Assembly: GCA_938045585.1 (NCBI GenBank)
Contig: CALIAU010000002.1
Coordinates: forward strand, 186,001 to 250,000
DNA: 64,000 nucleotides
From: an uncultured Saprospiraceae bacterium
GTDB lineage: Bacteria > Bacteroidota > Bacteroidia > Chitinophagales > Saprospiraceae
Direction: 5' to 3'
Of this stretch, positions 50,907 to 63,670 are shown piece after piece. The notes under the pieces are model-generated. The model made no database searches. It was not told the origin of the DNA and was given only the letters and a program-made list of their open reading frames with translations. A program made the translations under genes and the position numbers. Position 1 is the stretch's first letter. Each line of letters begins with the position of its first letter.

Positions 50907-52712
50907 CTAGCGCATAAGGTTATAATCTGGTGAAATAAACAAAAGATAAAGAGCAAATCTAGCCATATACCACTCATAATTGTCTCCACCGTAGGTAGGA
51001 GGCAATCCTTCTATAGCTGTTCTAATTATAGTCCTCGTCTCGTCTGTTAATTGACCATGCGTATAACGTATATCTAATTCATTTATCAGCTTTTCTGGCT
51101 CGTCTGCAAATCCATGTAATTCATCTGTTAAAATTGGAACATCTACATCCCCATAATTATCTTCCCAACTGTACAAATAATTATCCCATAAGGTCCAGTT
51201 ATTAACCTGATTAATCATCCCTGTTGCAGTAGAGGTATTATGTAGAAAGAACTCAGGTGCATAGTAACCATTATCCGAAAGCAGTCCAACAGGATGATAC
51301 TCTGGTAAATAAAAGTTAAATACCGTCGGGGAATACAAAGGAATTTGTTTAGAACTATTGAAAAAGTTAAAGCTACTATTCCAATATCTACCCATAGGGC
51401 TATCTAAGGCTAAGGGCCTTGAGATATGTACATACTTTGTAAAAGGCTCACGCATTCTTGGTGCAAAATCTAACTGCATTGGAGCACATTCTCTTGCTTC
51501 ATCATCTAATAGAATAGCTTTTATAATTGCTTGCATATCTCCTCGAACACCACTTCCATTATCTATGAAAGCAGCAGCAACTCTTGATATATAGCCTGGC
51601 GTTGGATTAGATTTCACAAGTCTTTGTATCAGCAATCTGCTAAAGAAAGGAGGCATGTTATCATGATTAAACAAATAACTGACTGTTTGTTCAATATCTG
51701 TCATGCCAGCTTGATTAGCTGGTATTGTTAGATCACCTCCAAAGATTATTTTTTCTTTCGTTTCGTGGAAATCTTCATACATGACCATAGGAACAGTTTT
51801 GTCCGCACCATACATGCCTAAGCCAAAATAAGGCACGTCTATCCATGTAACGAAATCCATTATGCCACCAGGACCTAAGCCTGTAAAGACATTCGCCATC
51901 TCTACTATATCATCATTATTATAGGTAGGAATAAATTCCCCATCCCCATCAATTTTTCTTGAACCATCCTGATTTAATTCATACAAACCTATAGAGAATA
52001 ACTGCATGATCTCACGTGCATAGTTTTGATCTGGATGTATATTTTCCTCTATGTCTTCTTTCGGATTATTTAAATGACTTAAATAATATCCCATAGGAAC
52101 ACTTAGAGTAACATCCATCAGTAAATCCTCTACATTCCCAAAGGCATTGCCCATGAGTAAGTCATAGTAAGACCCTACTGCCAACGCAAAGGCTCTCAAA
52201 TCCGATTCATTGGATATGACATAAATCTGAGAAAGGGCATAGGCAATTTTTTGCCTTAAATAATCCTCATTATCCTGTAATGCCTGCCACCAACTGTAAT
52301 TCCAAATCACATGATTAGGTCCATGGATAGATACATCATCAGGGTCATAGCCGTTTGCTAATCGATGAAAAAGAACGGTATCCCAAACTTCTTGTGTCGT
52401 CTCTTCATAGCTCGTCTCAGGCAACAAAAATTGCGCATCCAACCAGCCTTCAAAATCAAGCGTCTCTGATAGCTCTTCAATTTCAACTCTAGTACCTCCA
52501 AAACTGGCCTGGAATAGAAAACGGGATGCTTCAAATAAATCCGCATCTAATCCAACTCCATCAACGGTACTTTGTGCACTTCCGATGCCACTATTACTAC
52601 TAGATGTTACTATCATGCCATCCGCATGCCCAGCACCTAAATAGTCAGAATAATTTTGCCCGCTCATATTTAGAGCACAAAAACTTAAAATGAAACAAAG
52701 GGTATATTTCAT
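50907..52712 (-). CDS. DUF1800 protein (copy c)
   Basis: A 601-residue secreted protein (signal peptide ILSFCALNMSGQ). The leader block GAGHADGMIVTSSSNSGIGSAQSTVDG and domain hallmark HPDQNYAREIMQLFSIGLYELNQDGSRK match the other copies, and it ends SPDYNLMR. It is closer to copy b than to copy a. It is coupled to the discoidin-like/T9SS gene at 52718 by a five-base gap, so the two form a second transcription unit of the cluster. Confidence 0.94.
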   Translation of the reverse strand: MKYTLCFILSFCALNMSGQNYSDYLGAGHADGMIVTSSSNSGIGSAQSTVDGVGLDADLFEASRFLFQASFGGTRVEIEELSETLDFEGWLDAQFLLPETSYEETTQEVWDTVLFHRLANGYDPDDVSIHGPNHVIWNYSWWQALQDNEDYLRQKIAYALSQIYVISNESDLRAFALAVGSYYDLLMGNAFGNVEDLLMDVTLSVPMGYYLSHLNNPKEDIEENIHPDQNYAREIMQLFSIGLYELNQDGSRKIDGDGEFIPTYNNDDIVEMANVFTGLGPGGIMDFVTWIDVPYFGLGMYGADKTVPMVMYEDFHETKEKIIFGGDLTIPANQAGMTDIEQTVSYLFNHDNMPPFFSRLLIQRLVKSNPTPGYISRVAAAFIDNGSGVRGDMQAIIKAILLDDEARECAPMQLDFAPRMREPFTKYVHISRPLALDSPMGRYWNSSFNFFNSSKQIPLYSPTVFNFYLPEYHPVGLLSDNGYYAPEFFLHNTSTATGMINQVNNWTLWDNYLYSWEDNYGDVDVPILTDELHGFADEPEKLINELDIRYTHGQLTDETRTIIRTAIEGLPPTYGGDNYEWYMARFALYLLFISPDYNLMR

Positions 52713-52717
52713 AGTTA

Positions 52718-53467
52718 TTATCTTGTTATAATTAATTCAGAGGTAGACATTTTATCGCCAGATTGAATCGCAATTATATACACGCCAGCTGTCAAGGAGG
52801 CTAGATTTAATATTTTGGAACTTGTACCAGCTGGTATAAAAGTCTGTTCTATATACACTTGTTGACCTAAACTATTAGATATAGTCAATTTACCATCAAT
52901 ACTAGAAGCAGTCTCAAACTTTAAAGCAACAATATCACTCGCCGGGTTTGGTGAGGGTACTAACGAAAAATTCGAAATTTGGGTATCCTCAATATTTGAA
53001 ACTAAATTACCTACCTCAATTTTTATTTCCGCCATCCCAAAACAATCGCCTCCAAAATTTGATACCGCTGTAAACAAAATAAATTGAGCACTTAGTCCAC
53101 TTAAATCTGGACCCTCATCTCCTTGATAGAATGAAGAGGCCGATATTTCTTCTAGAGTATGGCTACCATACGTTTGCCAAGTAAGCCCATCATTAGAATA
53201 ATCAACTATTAATTCTTGAATACCATTCGACTCTTCACCAGGTGTATTATAATTCCAGATTGTAGATCTACCTAATTCTTGAATACTCCCAATATCATAC
53301 ATTATCCAATGAGAAACTCCTCGCTCAGGATAGGGGCTCAATGAAGGTGTGCAGGAAAGCCAAGCCTCATCTGTACTTGTATTATGACGATCCGGAAAAC
53401 ACTGAGAATATAAACCCAGAGCTGAGAAAATAAAGCAAAAAATATAGATATAACGCGTGTAACTCAT
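52718..53467 (-). CDS. Secreted discoidin-like protein with T9SS sorting domain
   Basis: A 249-residue protein: signal peptide (YIFCFIFSALGLYSQ), a discoidin-like domain (about 22-155; CFPDRHNTSTDEAWLSC, SHWIMYDIGSI, VDYSNDGLTWQ, CFGMAEIKIEV) and a T9SS type A domain (about 170-249; LVPSPNPASDIVALKF, SNSLGQQVYIE, GVYIIAIQSGDK). The first domain is paralogous to that at 46647, including the three cysteines. It is the first gene of a transcription unit with DUF1800 copy c. Confidence 0.75.
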   Translation of the reverse strand: MSYTRYIYIFCFIFSALGLYSQCFPDRHNTSTDEAWLSCTPSLSPYPERGVSHWIMYDIGSIQELGRSTIWNYNTPGEESNGIQELIVDYSNDGLTWQTYGSHTLEEISASSFYQGDEGPDLSGLSAQFILFTAVSNFGGDCFGMAEIKIEVGNLVSNIEDTQISNFSLVPSPNPASDIVALKFETASSIDGKLTISNSLGQQVYIEQTFIPAGTSSKILNLASLTAGVYIIAIQSGDKMSTSELIITR

Positions 53468-60049: not shown

Positions 60050-60507
60050 ACTGTTCCCCTATTTTTTTGTCGCCATATGGAGACCATCATACGTATTGGG
60101 AGTAAGACTGCAGAAATTACTGCTGCAGTCCAGAAAAAAATCATTTGTGTTTTCATATATGAGCCCAAAGATTTTTGCTTTTCGACTGGGAAATTCTCTA
60201 ATAAAGCATATAAACCATCCTCATCTACATAGGCTTGAAAATCATAGATGTTATCCACTAGATACATCGTAATAGGAATCGCAAGAAAAATAAGAGCAAC
60301 CTTAGGATACGTTGTATCTGCAATCCAATGAAATTTAAGTAAAAATATATATCGGATAAAAGTAACTGCAGCTATTATAAAGACTATGTTCTCAGTATAA
60401 AACGGATAATTCTTCCCTAAACTATTATACAAAGGAAGAAGAACTAAAACACAGAGTAAGCCTGTAAATAGTATCCATACCAATTCCATAAATAACTTTG
60501 ACCTCAT
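60046..60507 (-). CDS. Hypothetical membrane protein
   Basis: A 153-residue protein with about four transmembrane helices (9-25, 40-58, 72-90, 120-140), no recognised domain. It is translationally coupled to the GT39 gene downstream (ATGA overlap) and is led by a TAACTTTG promoter element. A role as an accessory protein to the glycosyltransferase is inferred from this coupling. Confidence 0.65.
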   Translation of the reverse strand: MRSKLFMELVWILFTGLLCVLVLLPLYNSLGKNYPFYTENIVFIIAAVTFIRYIFLLKFHWIADTTYPKVALIFLAIPITMYLVDNIYDFQAYVDEDGLYALLENFPVEKQKSLGSYMKTQMIFFWTAAVISAVLLPIRMMVSIWRQKNRGTV

Positions 60508-60632: not shown

Positions 60633-61400
60633 TTGATAAATCAAAAACACACAACTCTCCGCCTTAGGCTTGCCAATCAACTTTGTCAAAACCTATTACA
60701 TATGTTTCCCAAGCGTATACAATCTTTTATTGTTTATGGCTCTGTGGCTTTAAAGAAAGCACAAAAGGAAAGTGATATAGATATTCAAATTATATCTGAT
60801 AATCCGAACTTACTTCAACAGCAGAAAACGGAACAGTTAATTTTTGAAGCGCAACAGAAAAGTGGTATTAAGATGATGGTGAATGCGAAAACACCCTCTT
60901 TTATTATTGAAGAATTAGTTCAGGGAGATAGTTTTCATGTTTTGATGGTATTAAATGGAGTTTGTCTTTTAAACAGTGCTTTATTTTCTTCATTAAAAAC
61001 CTTAGTACAATCTTCACCTCTACCAAGCAGAGATGTTATCGAAAACAAATTAAGAAGGGAGGTTCAAGAATGGTCAAACGATCTTTTTAATCAACGATTA
61101 AGCCAATTTAATAGTGACTGCAGTTTAAGCACATTTCAGTTTCTTGCCTATAAAAGAGTGACTGAAAACATATATGACACTTGGATAGAGCAAGAAAATT
61201 CTATTCAACGTGCGTCTAAACATCTTCCTGCAATTCAGGAACATCTACCAGAGTATAGTGCCTGTCTGGATAAATTCCTTCGCTACAACAAAAATGTTAG
61301 CAGCTTAGGTATTGATTTAGATCTAGAACATGATTTTAATATAGTTGAACTCCTTCAAACAATGCGCTATATTCTAAAGCAAACTAAAGAACTAAGTTGA
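60633..61400 (+). CDS. Nucleotidyltransferase-fold protein 1 of 4
   Basis: A 255-residue protein. The Pol-beta-type motif SFIVYGSVALKKAQKESDIDIQI (about 31-53) has the GS and the DxD. The next strand, IKMMVNAKT, carries Asn where a third carboxylate is expected. The conserved LNGVCLLNSALFSSLK (about 107-122) and a helical C-terminal domain ending VELLQTMRYILK follow. The N terminus from TTG 60633 aligns with the other three copies, so TTG is the likely start. It is the first gene of the four-copy array and overlaps the next gene by four bases. Confidence 0.8.
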   Translation: MINQKHTTLRLRLANQLCQNLLHMFPKRIQSFIVYGSVALKKAQKESDIDIQIISDNPNLLQQQKTEQLIFEAQQKSGIKMMVNAKTPSFIIEELVQGDSFHVLMVLNGVCLLNSALFSSLKTLVQSSPLPSRDVIENKLRREVQEWSNDLFNQRLSQFNSDCSLSTFQFLAYKRVTENIYDTWIEQENSIQRASKHLPAIQEHLPEYSACLDKFLRYNKNVSSLGIDLDLEHDFNIVELLQTMRYILKQTKELS

Positions 61401-62149
61401 GTACTTTTCACTCAAAACATAGAACAAAAATTGCTGAACAGATTCTTTTAGCGATAAAGAAATTTGATACTACAAATATCCAATGTTTTATTGTATATGG
61501 TTCCACTGCTAGAGGCACAGCAACGGAGCACAGTGATTTAGATATCCAAATTTTAGTCCATGTTACCACCCCTAAGCTTGTCAATTATTTATCAAAACTC
61601 AAAGCCACATTTGAGCAGAAGTACGATTTAGAGATTGCACTAAACCTAAAAACCGTTTCTCAATACATAGAAAATCTAATGCGCAATGAGCCACTCTATT
61701 ATTTTATACTAGTTGATGGAATCTGCCTTTTAAATAGTACTGTTTTTATTGGACTTAAACATTTTTTAAAAGCGAATCCAAAACCTATCTTAAAAAAACT
61801 AGAGAAGGTGCATGCTAAAGGGATTGGAATTAGATCTGCAGCTATCCTTACAACCCACACGCCTAAAATTATTGAAGAATTTCAATCCATACTTTTAGAC
61901 TATACTTCATTAGACTTCATAAGGAATAACTCTGTCAAAAACTACATTGACCTATTAGCTAATACAAAAGGCAGAGACATTGCACACAAACCAATTCCTT
62001 TAAAGGAAATGGAAAAATGTATTACTCAAATTAAACACTTTGCAAATAGTTCTTTTACACTTGACCTCAAAAATGAATTTAATCTAATCGATATGTTGAA
62101 AATGCTAAACATTATTCTTCAAGAATCAAATCCTAATGTACATGAATAA
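61397..62149 (+). CDS. Nucleotidyltransferase-fold protein 2 of 4
   Basis: A 250-residue paralogue. The motif is CFIVYGSTARGTATEHSDLDIQI (about 28-50), closest of the four to the canonical GS-x-A-x-G form. The third-carboxylate position reads IALNLKTV. The block VDGICLLNSTVFIGLK follows, then a helical C-terminal domain. The start is TTG 61397 overlapping the previous stop (TTGA). The C-terminal middle (about 150-200) is the most divergent of the four. Confidence 0.8.
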   Translation: MSTFHSKHRTKIAEQILLAIKKFDTTNIQCFIVYGSTARGTATEHSDLDIQILVHVTTPKLVNYLSKLKATFEQKYDLEIALNLKTVSQYIENLMRNEPLYYFILVDGICLLNSTVFIGLKHFLKANPKPILKKLEKVHAKGIGIRSAAILTTHTPKIIEEFQSILLDYTSLDFIRNNSVKNYIDLLANTKGRDIAHKPIPLKEMEKCITQIKHFANSSFTLDLKNEFNLIDMLKMLNIILQESNPNVHE

Positions 62150-62915
62150 CGAAAGCAAAAGAAGAGTAATAATTGCACAGGAACTTGCAGATTATTTAAA
62201 AAGTAAACAGCATAGTCCTGCCCAATCATTCATTGTGTATGGATCAAGTATATTGGGGACTGCACAAGCAAACAGTGACATTGATATTATCTTACTTGTT
62301 GATTATAATGATAGACAATTGATGTCTGAGTTAAAAAAGAAAACCTTAGAAATTCAGAAAATACATGCAGTCTTAATTACTATAAATGTAAAACTTGTAT
62401 CTGATTTCTTGAAAGAAATTACAGAAGGCAATCACTATTTTCTACATATCGCCCTTAAAGGAAAATGTCTTCTTGACAGTAAGATCTTCGAAGGCTTTAA
62501 ATCTATAGTGGCCACAAACTCCTTGCCTTCTCAGAAGGATTTAATTAGCAAAAACGCAAAAGACACAAGCAGCCGCGTTCAGGACTTATTTTTAGGCTCA
62601 TTAGTTAAACTGTGTACGGGAATTCGAATTACTATTTTAAAATATATTGACTTAAAATTACTTCAGACTATGAACTTAGAAAGCTGGGAAGAATATCAAA
62701 CTCAGATCCAAAGAGACGTCTACGAACCTTCCATACGAAAATTTCTACCACAGTATGCTGATAATATAATGGCCTTCTTTGCTTTAAGTGATCAAGTAAA
62801 ACCCTTAGGATTTGACCTAGCTGTACTTGATAAATTGCCCTCCTGCAATTTCGTAGAGCTGCTTAGATGTATAGAATTTATAACTAAGGATAGTCAAACT
62901 ACACTTCAAGATTAA
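62142..62915 (+). CDS. Nucleotidyltransferase-fold protein 3 of 4
   Basis: A 257-residue paralogue from ATG 62142; an ATG two codons earlier (62136) is possible, but MNNESKRRVIIAQ aligns with MEENTKKLVVAQ of copy 4. The motif is SFIVYGSSILGTAQANSDIDIIL; the third position reads ITINVKLV. LKGKCLLDSKIFEGFK and a helical C terminus follow. It overlaps copy 2 by eight bases. Confidence 0.8.
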   Translation: MNNESKRRVIIAQELADYLKSKQHSPAQSFIVYGSSILGTAQANSDIDIILLVDYNDRQLMSELKKKTLEIQKIHAVLITINVKLVSDFLKEITEGNHYFLHIALKGKCLLDSKIFEGFKSIVATNSLPSQKDLISKNAKDTSSRVQDLFLGSLVKLCTGIRITILKYIDLKLLQTMNLESWEEYQTQIQRDVYEPSIRKFLPQYADNIMAFFALSDQVKPLGFDLAVLDKLPSCNFVELLRCIEFITKDSQTTLQD

Positions 62916-62920
62916 AAGCA

Positions 62921-63670
62921 ATGGAGGAAAACACTAAAAAATTGGTTGTCGCGCAACAATTACTGACTAAGCTAGATGCTTTAAAAAGTACAAACATTAA
63001 GTCTCTTATACTTTATGGCAGTGTAGCGCTTAAAACTGCAAAAAAGCAGAGTGACATAGATCTAATGTTGCTCTTGGACTATACAGATATGAATTTACTT
63101 AAAAAGGTGAAATCAATTTGCGAAGAAACGCAAGAAACATCTCAGGAACAAATTGCGCTTAGTTTCAATACCGTTTCAAATTTTTTAAACCACATGATGC
63201 AGGGTCATCAAATGTACTTGAACATGTGCTTGCATGGCACATGCCTGATGAATAGTCTAGTATTTGACGGCATTAAAAACATTATTACAAATAGCAAAAT
63301 ACCTCCACAAGAGGAAATTGTATCGCATAGTAAAGCATTCATTCAAAATCAAACGAATGTATTTTTAGGTAGAACCATGACAGACTTTATTGCAAGTATA
63401 GATGCCATTGTGCGCAGATATTTACATTTTAAAGAATTTGGGCAAAGCAAAATAGATAATTGGAAAGCATATGAAGCATTGTTAAACCATAATGACTTTA
63501 GTAATTTAATTCATCTTCATTTATCCCAGTTCGAGCCTGTCTTAAGCAAATTCTATTCGATAAAGCATGCTTTCAGTCCCGTTCAACCTCCCAATTTTGA
63601 AGTTCTTGAAACAATTGATTTAGCACAGCTTCTGAACTGTATCCGCTTCATACAAAATAATTCAAACTAG
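62921..63670 (+). CDS. Nucleotidyltransferase-fold protein 4 of 4
   Basis: A 249-residue paralogue with SLILYGSVALKTAKKQSDIDLML, third-position strand IALSFNTV, LHGTCLMNSLVFDGIK, and a helical C terminus ending AQLLNCIRFIQ. The gap to copy 3 is five bases. Its stop overlaps the stop of the convergent 2H-phosphoesterase gene. Confidence 0.8.
   Translation: MEENTKKLVVAQQLLTKLDALKSTNIKSLILYGSVALKTAKKQSDIDLMLLLDYTDMNLLKKVKSICEETQETSQEQIALSFNTVSNFLNHMMQGHQMYLNMCLHGTCLMNSLVFDGIKNIITNSKIPPQEEIVSHSKAFIQNQTNVFLGRTMTDFIASIDAIVRRYLHFKEFGQSKIDNWKAYEALLNHNDFSNLIHLHLSQFEPVLSKFYSIKHAFSPVQPPNFEVLETIDLAQLLNCIRFIQNNSN

Follow-up and report, generated by a model that had tools for sequence, protein, structure and literature searches.

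The window analyzed here is a 64,000-nucleotide stretch of the genome of an uncultured Saprospiraceae bacterium (assembly GCA_938045585.1, contig CALIAU010000002.1, positions 186,001 to 250,000), and four consecutive plus-strand open reading frames (ORFs) spanning its positions 60633-63670 encode paralogous nucleotidyltransferase (NTase)-fold proteins of 249-257 residues (259 for copy 3 from an upstream ATG). The reading that we prefer, although it falls somewhat short of an even chance, is that a protein with fused NTase and helical domains underwent a fourfold, genus-restricted expansion into the present array, and that the products of this array may be pseudo- or near-pseudo-NTases that bind nucleoside triphosphate (NTP), assemble mutually and use their helical domains to bind different partners or substrates, with the NTP serving as a switch. 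The superfamily itself is already known; what appears to be new is the genus-restricted fourfold array, the orphan C-terminal domain and the uniform loss of the third catalytic acid. A preliminary description of this DNA, made from the letters and their translations, had spoken of four consecutive genes that overlap or abut, and the ORF coordinates agree with it (orthologues are given by their positions in locus L030 of genome G001, a second species of the same genus):

60633-61400, plus strand, copy 1, 255 residues, TTG start; orthologue L030:5992-6759, 161/255 identical
61397-62149, plus strand, copy 2, 250 residues, TTG start; orthologue L030:6756-7508, 143/250 identical
62142-62915, plus strand, copy 3, 257 residues, ATG start (alternative ATG at 62136 giving 259 residues); orthologue within L030:7489-8274, 175/257 identical
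62921-63670, plus strand, copy 4, 249 residues, ATG start; orthologue L030:8282-9031, 162/249 identical

Copies 1 and 2 overlap by 4 bases and copies 2 and 3 by 8 or 14, while a gap of 5 bases lies between copies 3 and 4; copies 2, 3 and 4 are 24, 28 and 25% identical to copy 1, respectively.

All four copies passed the curated thresholds of two NTase profiles, PF01909 (NTP_transf_2; 28.7-32.3 bits, cut-off 21) and PF18765 (Polbeta; 28.1-35.5 bits, cut-off 26.9). Exactly four PF01909 matches were found at E 0.01 in the whole genome (97.96% complete; this count concerns PF01909 and not other NTase families), all of them in the array; since both cut-offs were passed by every copy and the only four matches of the genome lie here, the similarity is not due to chance. 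An initial pattern search of the genome was uninformative, with 19 and 25 matches against 26 and 39 for the reversed control. No curated family claiming the array proteins was found beyond the superfamily profiles in the comparison with NCBIfam. The earlier proposal of an expanded, non-canonical NTase-fold family was upheld.

The GS...DxD motif reported earlier was recovered in all four copies as GSx10DxD, and its columns are invariant in 8/8 proteins (the four window copies and their four sister orthologues):

60738-60782, plus strand, GSx10DxD nucleotide/metal-binding motif of copy 1
61499-61543, plus strand, the same motif of copy 2
62241-62285, plus strand, the same motif of copy 3
63017-63061, plus strand, the same motif of copy 4

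Two further patterns proposed earlier were retained in part. The G-x-C-L-(L/M)-(N/D)-S..F..K motif is present in all four copies, but in copy 1 it lies 59 residues past the second Asp rather than about 55. Near the C-terminal end an Ile is invariant, whereas the rest of the proposed ending is loose, and copy 3 carries Glu where Arg or Asn had been claimed. Mean paralogue identity was 54% in the GS-DxD stretch versus 18% in the C-terminus.

According to passages of PMC7641770, canonical MntA binds two Mg ions via D39, D41 and D71, and passages of PMC4631478 describe the third acid of AadA and LinB, the counterpart of Glu76 in kanamycin nucleotidyltransferase (KNTase), as the catalytic base. The column of the third catalytic carboxylate was located by a joint alignment of 84 ORFs with the G[ST]..D-x-D pattern (loci lacking such an ORF were left out) and by a hidden Markov model (HMM) built from 37 acidic MNT-type rows:

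60876-60878, plus strand, third-carboxylate position of copy 1, Met; the Asn named earlier lies two codons later
61637-61639, plus strand, third-carboxylate position of copy 2, Ala
62379-62381, plus strand, third-carboxylate position of copy 3, Thr
63155-63157, plus strand, third-carboxylate position of copy 4, Ala

In the sister species the same column holds Val, Ala, Thr and Ala in copies 1-4, so the third carboxylate is gone from all eight proteins. The preliminary description was therefore right that no acid stands at the catalytic position, but it misnamed the replacing residue: the Asn/Ser that it took for the substitute is excluded because it occupies the wrong column, two residues downstream. 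This column (84 in copy 1 numbering) is mostly hydrophobic across the 84 ORFs, and the catalytic Asp of the HMM aligns two residues before the Asn/Ser, on the same column as in the joint alignment. The two lines of evidence are not fully independent, because the HMM rows were chosen via the joint alignment. Alignment failed to place KNTase Glu76 on this column in any of three MAFFT modes (two gave Ile and one Asp); hence the column is defined from MNT-type sequences, and only the published AadA/LinB/KNTase equivalence connects it with KNTase. For the PDB chain 9xbd_E two alignments conflict, one of them putting Ser on the catalytic Asp of L084, a locus with a free-standing NTase domain, and the other Val on column 82. 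As to a third carboxylate elsewhere in the fold, D48 and D50 are the sole acidic positions common to all eight array proteins, and 6/8 have an acid at each of the positions 56, 72, 186, 230 and 239 (copy 1 numbering).

At the same time, the loss of this acid is not peculiar to the array. Column 82 (copy 1 numbering) held D in 29, S in 29, E in 8 and other residues in 16 of the 84 ORFs, with gaps in 2, which leaves 47/84 non-acidic or gapped, in a set that has three archaeal rows, includes four or more genes twice and one ORF that is probably spurious, and is biased to relatives of the query. The loss being common in MNT-like domains, it is a weaker sign of something special than had been supposed, and these counts suggest that MNT domains with an incomplete acid triad form a sizeable class. 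The 29 Ser-bearing ORFs of this query-biased set include L087, L090, L091 and L078, and some of them, for example L087, adjoin genes that look HEPN-like by eye.

In sister genome G001 each of the four genes has one counterpart, their order is unchanged and the flanks are collinear; five flanking genes are 66-90% identical, and the gene for a 2H phosphoesterase that adjoins the array is identical at 91/174 positions. Nonsynonymous divergence (dN) between orthologues was 0.22-0.34 for the four array genes, and synonymous divergence (dS) was 1.99 for copy 1 and 1.41 for copy 2, while for copies 3 and 4 it was not computable (returned as -1 and taken as saturated), nor was it for the five flanking genes; these values point to purifying selection on the array orthologues. 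In a tree of 37 NTase domains, with a midpoint root and several long branches elsewhere, the eight array proteins fell on one side of a branch (support 97/90), and each of the four orthologue pairs was supported at 99/97 or better. The simplest reading would be one ancestor, three duplications before both species parted and selection retaining all four copies.

Full-length relatives were rare. A profile of the eight sequences matched 56/398 genomes of the family sample at E 0.001 and covered the full length in only 2/398, both array carriers; the other matches covered part of the NTase domain, save one in genome G214, which spans positions 138-225 with nine internal stops and was taken as chance. 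The phylum sample gave 38/395 matching genomes at E 0.0001, with full length in the own genome only (a match in G438 reaches position 184, through seven stops and past an ORF of 109 residues). The own genome was likewise the sole match in the class sample (1/247 at E 1e-8) and, for the C-terminal profile, in the order sample (1/396). The phylum, class and order samples overlap and did not include the sister genome, as can be told from the fact that it would have matched; since the candidates of each genome were scored only in part, rare relatives may be missed. A scan of the genome collection with two peptide patterns, both within the NTase domain, gave 18 loci, among them L030 (64% identity); six archaeal loci reach residue 206-207 (tblastn, 20-24% identity), L044 reaches 137, and the rest are shorter. 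The best match among the free-standing domains of the phylum sample was L084, where a PF05168 HEPN gene follows. With copy 3 as a query, no match was found at E 0.01 in the phage and plasmid collections; viral contigs gave one locus with free-standing NTase domains, and a viral Foldseek search with the copy 3 model gave two matches at E <=0.001, both named NTase-domain proteins. A mostly single-copy occurrence of homologues, which would have spoken against the earlier proposal, was not seen: the sole full-length relatives found by the profile searches again stand four in tandem.

AlphaFold2 models were made for copies 1 and 3. In both, the NTase domain leads into long helices, with a predicted local distance difference test (pLDDT) score of 83.1 and a predicted template modeling (pTM) score of 0.54 for copy 1 (14-row alignment), and 83.6 and 0.50, respectively, for copy 3 (8-row alignment). 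Thus the fused helical C-terminus read from the sequence is present in the predicted models of both copies:

61008-61397, plus strand, C-terminal domain of copy 1, modeled as helical, with no convincing sequence relative
61769-62146, plus strand, C-terminal domain of copy 2
62511-62912, plus strand, C-terminal domain of copy 3, helices predicted
63287-63667, plus strand, C-terminal domain of copy 4

In VIA-align comparisons ANT(4')-Ia ranked first for the N-terminal domains of copy 1 (Z 13.0, root-mean-square deviation (rmsd) 2.9, 116 residues) and copy 3 (Z 11.5, rmsd 3.5, 117 residues), and MNT was found among the further NTase folds. Whole-chain structural matches, in which the C-terminal domain was searched together with the rest, were to ANT(4') entries only, at rmsd 16.0-18.1; the entry 6p06, for instance, matched copy 3 with Z 11.7 over 195 residues at rmsd 17.6, which corresponds to a different domain arrangement.

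The C-terminal profile showed no hhalign link to the C-terminus of ANT(4'), to a fused archaeal family or to seven HEPN-like neighbors of MNT genes (chosen by eye, one confirmed by Pfam), so its assignment as a KNTase C-terminal, HEPN or archaeal helical domain found no backing by this method. In the PDB the same profile had two weak matches, neither of them convincing (best E 0.067). The R-x4-6-H RNase motif occurs in 0/8 C-terminal domains, and none of the four copies matched a HEPN family in Pfam at E 1. The absence of this motif was thereby confirmed, and the earlier view that this is not the usual MNT-HEPN pair, the helical domain being fused, was supported. R-x3-H is present in the C-termini of 5/8 array proteins, and copy 2 has a single R-x5-H, in its GS loop, which its orthologue lacks.

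On the preferred reading, one ancestral two-domain protein, composed of an MNT/kanamycin-nucleotidyltransferase-type NTase and a helical domain, would have expanded fourfold in tandem. Every copy retained the GSx10DxD site, which in known relatives holds NTP and Mg, and every copy lost the third carboxylate, which in those relatives completes the two-metal site; the copies may thus bind NTP and transfer little or nothing. They would be co-translated and assemble mutually, like the KNTase dimer with its interfacial active sites, their fast-diverging helical domains would bind different partners or substrates, and NTP occupancy could act as a regulatory switch. The loss of the third acid together with the kept ATP-binding motif suggests nucleotide-binding partner proteins and not ordinary enzymes. 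A more specific version would make the array products a bacterial analogue of NF45-NF90-type pseudo-NTase scaffolds: a single hetero-oligomeric NTP-sensing complex made up of pseudo-NTases only, to which each copy contributes a subunit, with interfacial NTP sites that perform no transfer and orphan helical domains reading different partners; by analogy it is conceivable, and we regard it as rather unlikely.

Several points weigh against the preferred reading. The RelA/SpoT synthetase domain is active despite a missing acid. This domain lacks one of the three acids, according to passages of PMC11646218, and together with the frequently non-acidic column it means that acid loss is no proof of lost activity. 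The proposed base of KNTase is Glu145 of the second subunit, as set out in part of PMC4631478, so that a base in trans is possible. Some MNT-type ORFs that are non-acidic at the column adjoin HEPN-like genes (by eye); the pTM of both models reaches only 0.50-0.54; the array family was found in just two genomes; and ANT(4') is only the first of many NTase folds, AadA, AAD(9), MNT and others scoring Z 10-11, which indicates likeness of fold and not membership in ANT(4'). The main rival, not far behind, is accordingly that the proteins are active, atypical NTases, transferring nucleoside monophosphate by means of the DxD and a base from the helical domain or a partner subunit, each copy with a different substrate. 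This is a possibility of lower probability, to which the KNTase and RelA precedents, the invariance of DxD and GS in 8/8 proteins, and a conserved core with a diverged C-terminus, the pattern that a single chemistry acting on several substrates would produce, all lend weight; the objection is that no acid besides both Asp residues is common to all eight, the next five positions reaching 6/8.

The remaining alternatives were considered less probable. An origin of the array from a fused MNT-HEPN pair, as a module of toxin-antitoxin or anti-phage type that is domesticated or variant, is doubtful: the best PADLOC matches are the candidate defense models PDC-S09 and PDC-M05A, all four copies have MntA as their best NCBIfam match, and L084 adjoins a HEPN gene, but the MntA scores (21.5-33.7) are far under the cut-off of 60, the C-terminal domains lack R-x4-6-H and show no relation to HEPN by hhalign, and the genes occupy the same place with collinear flanks in both species. 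ANT-like enzymes modifying antibiotics or metabolites, expanded for several small molecules, would account for ANT(4')-Ia being the closest solved N-terminal domain and for the two-domain layout of similar length; the missing third acid, a C-terminus without a link to ANT(4') by hhalign and a score against NF033061 of at most 18.3 bits (cut-off 350), with copy 3 unlisted, make this improbable. Least probable, to the point of being barely credible, is a make-and-break pair in which the NTases and the adjacent 2H phosphoesterase form and cleave a nucleotide linkage. Their adjacency is kept in both species, but as the neighborhood is collinear these are not independent observations, and the 2H gene lies on the opposite strand. 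The preliminary description was correct that such a gene adjoins the array (PF13563, 81.1 bits), whereas its distribution lends no support to a functional link: homologues of the 2H gene occur in 18/60 genomes, own and sister included, and 16 of these 18 are without the array, so that the gene is an ordinary one in the family.

The array is bordered by a 153-residue gene and the 2H gene, with no HEPN gene adjoining. The 153-residue gene, upstream on the opposite strand, has no Pfam match at E 0.01, and beyond it, likewise on that strand, lies a 487-residue gene that, by eye, looks like a membrane glycosyltransferase. The 2H gene is convergent and downstream of copy 4; the ends of the two genes overlap by four bases (63667-63670) and are 11 bases apart in the sister genome. 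Homologues of the 487-residue gene and the 2H gene are co-present in six genomes lacking the array, on different contigs in 6/6, so no empty site could be defined. A 360-residue gene downstream has a C-terminal tail that is sorting-like by eye. The genes at 50907-53467 and L009:6303-7385 have C-terminal tails resembling the sorting domains of Bacteroidota type IX secretion. Some 3 kb downstream of the array the contig stops within an rRNA operon, of which 5S and the 3' portion of 23S are present, on the minus strand (L009:8541-9208). The full -33/-7 pattern of Bacteroidota promoters was not found upstream of the array in either species; a -7-like half-site is present at 60493 and at L030:5847, in both cases within the upstream gene.

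NTase-fold domains with an incomplete acid triad are common. Uncharacterized NTase groups without some catalytic residues have already been catalogued (Kuchta et al. 2009, as cited in passages of PMC11646218), and among the titles and abstract openings listed by literature searches none concerned an array of this kind. The array offers a clean natural case, the same catalytic position being lost in every copy, one-to-one in two species, with no other NTP_transf_2 gene found in the genome, and it can address whether such proteins act as an NTP-binding switch, make up for one another at subunit interfaces or catalyze with fewer acids. It also carries a caution against inferring a catalytic loss from residues nearby: the Asn/Ser named earlier lies off the catalytic column.

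Compared with known systems, the array proteins share with ANT(4')-Ia (1kny, 6p01, 6un8, 6nmk, 6p06) an N-terminal NTase fold (Z 11.2-13.0), a similar length and a fused helical C-terminus; they differ from it in the absence of the third-strand acid, in their four tandem copies and in a C-terminus for which hhalign found no relation, and against NF033061 (ANT(4')-I, cut-off 350) copies 1, 2 and 4 scored 17.2, 18.3 and 14.3 bits, copy 3 being unlisted. MntA, of the HEPN/MNT type VII toxin-antitoxin system, has a similar NTase domain with GSx10DxD, and the scores against NF047752 were 21.5, 33.7, 25.7 and 26.3 bits for copies 1-4 (cut-off 60); it is free-standing and bears D39/D41/D71 in the passages of PMC7641770, unlike the fused proteins of 249-257 residues without a third acid or a HEPN neighbor. 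HalB of the Hailong anti-phage system shares the NTase fold (Z 8.8-9.6), with 15.7, 13.5, 20.9 and 19.0 bits for copies 1-4 against NF051895 (cut-off 190). Of the CD-NTases (CBASS cyclases), the PADLOC Cyclase profile matched copy 2 only (16.7 bits, E 0.0009). A fused NTase family of DPANN archaea is homologous over residues 7-136 (hhalign 98%) and also has a fused C-terminal domain, but profile comparison of the C-termini found no link, and it forms a separate group in the tree. Its members, of about 272-299 residues (L031:5953-6789, L032:5893-6714, L034:2693-3589, L036:5923-6753, L040:5929-6747 and L046:865-1680), carry L-H-(I/V)-N at the expected third-acid site, with His at the column in each of the three members that were aligned, and Pfam sees the NTase domain alone in the five scanned. 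KNTase and LinB form homodimers whose active sites lie at the subunit interface, as described in part of PMC4631478, and passages of PMC3710099 state that in fusions with MNTs the HEPN domains typically have no RNase residues, and interpret such fusions as domesticated regulatory modules or enzymes. In layout, the array proteins appear to match this published picture of HEPN-MNT fusions.

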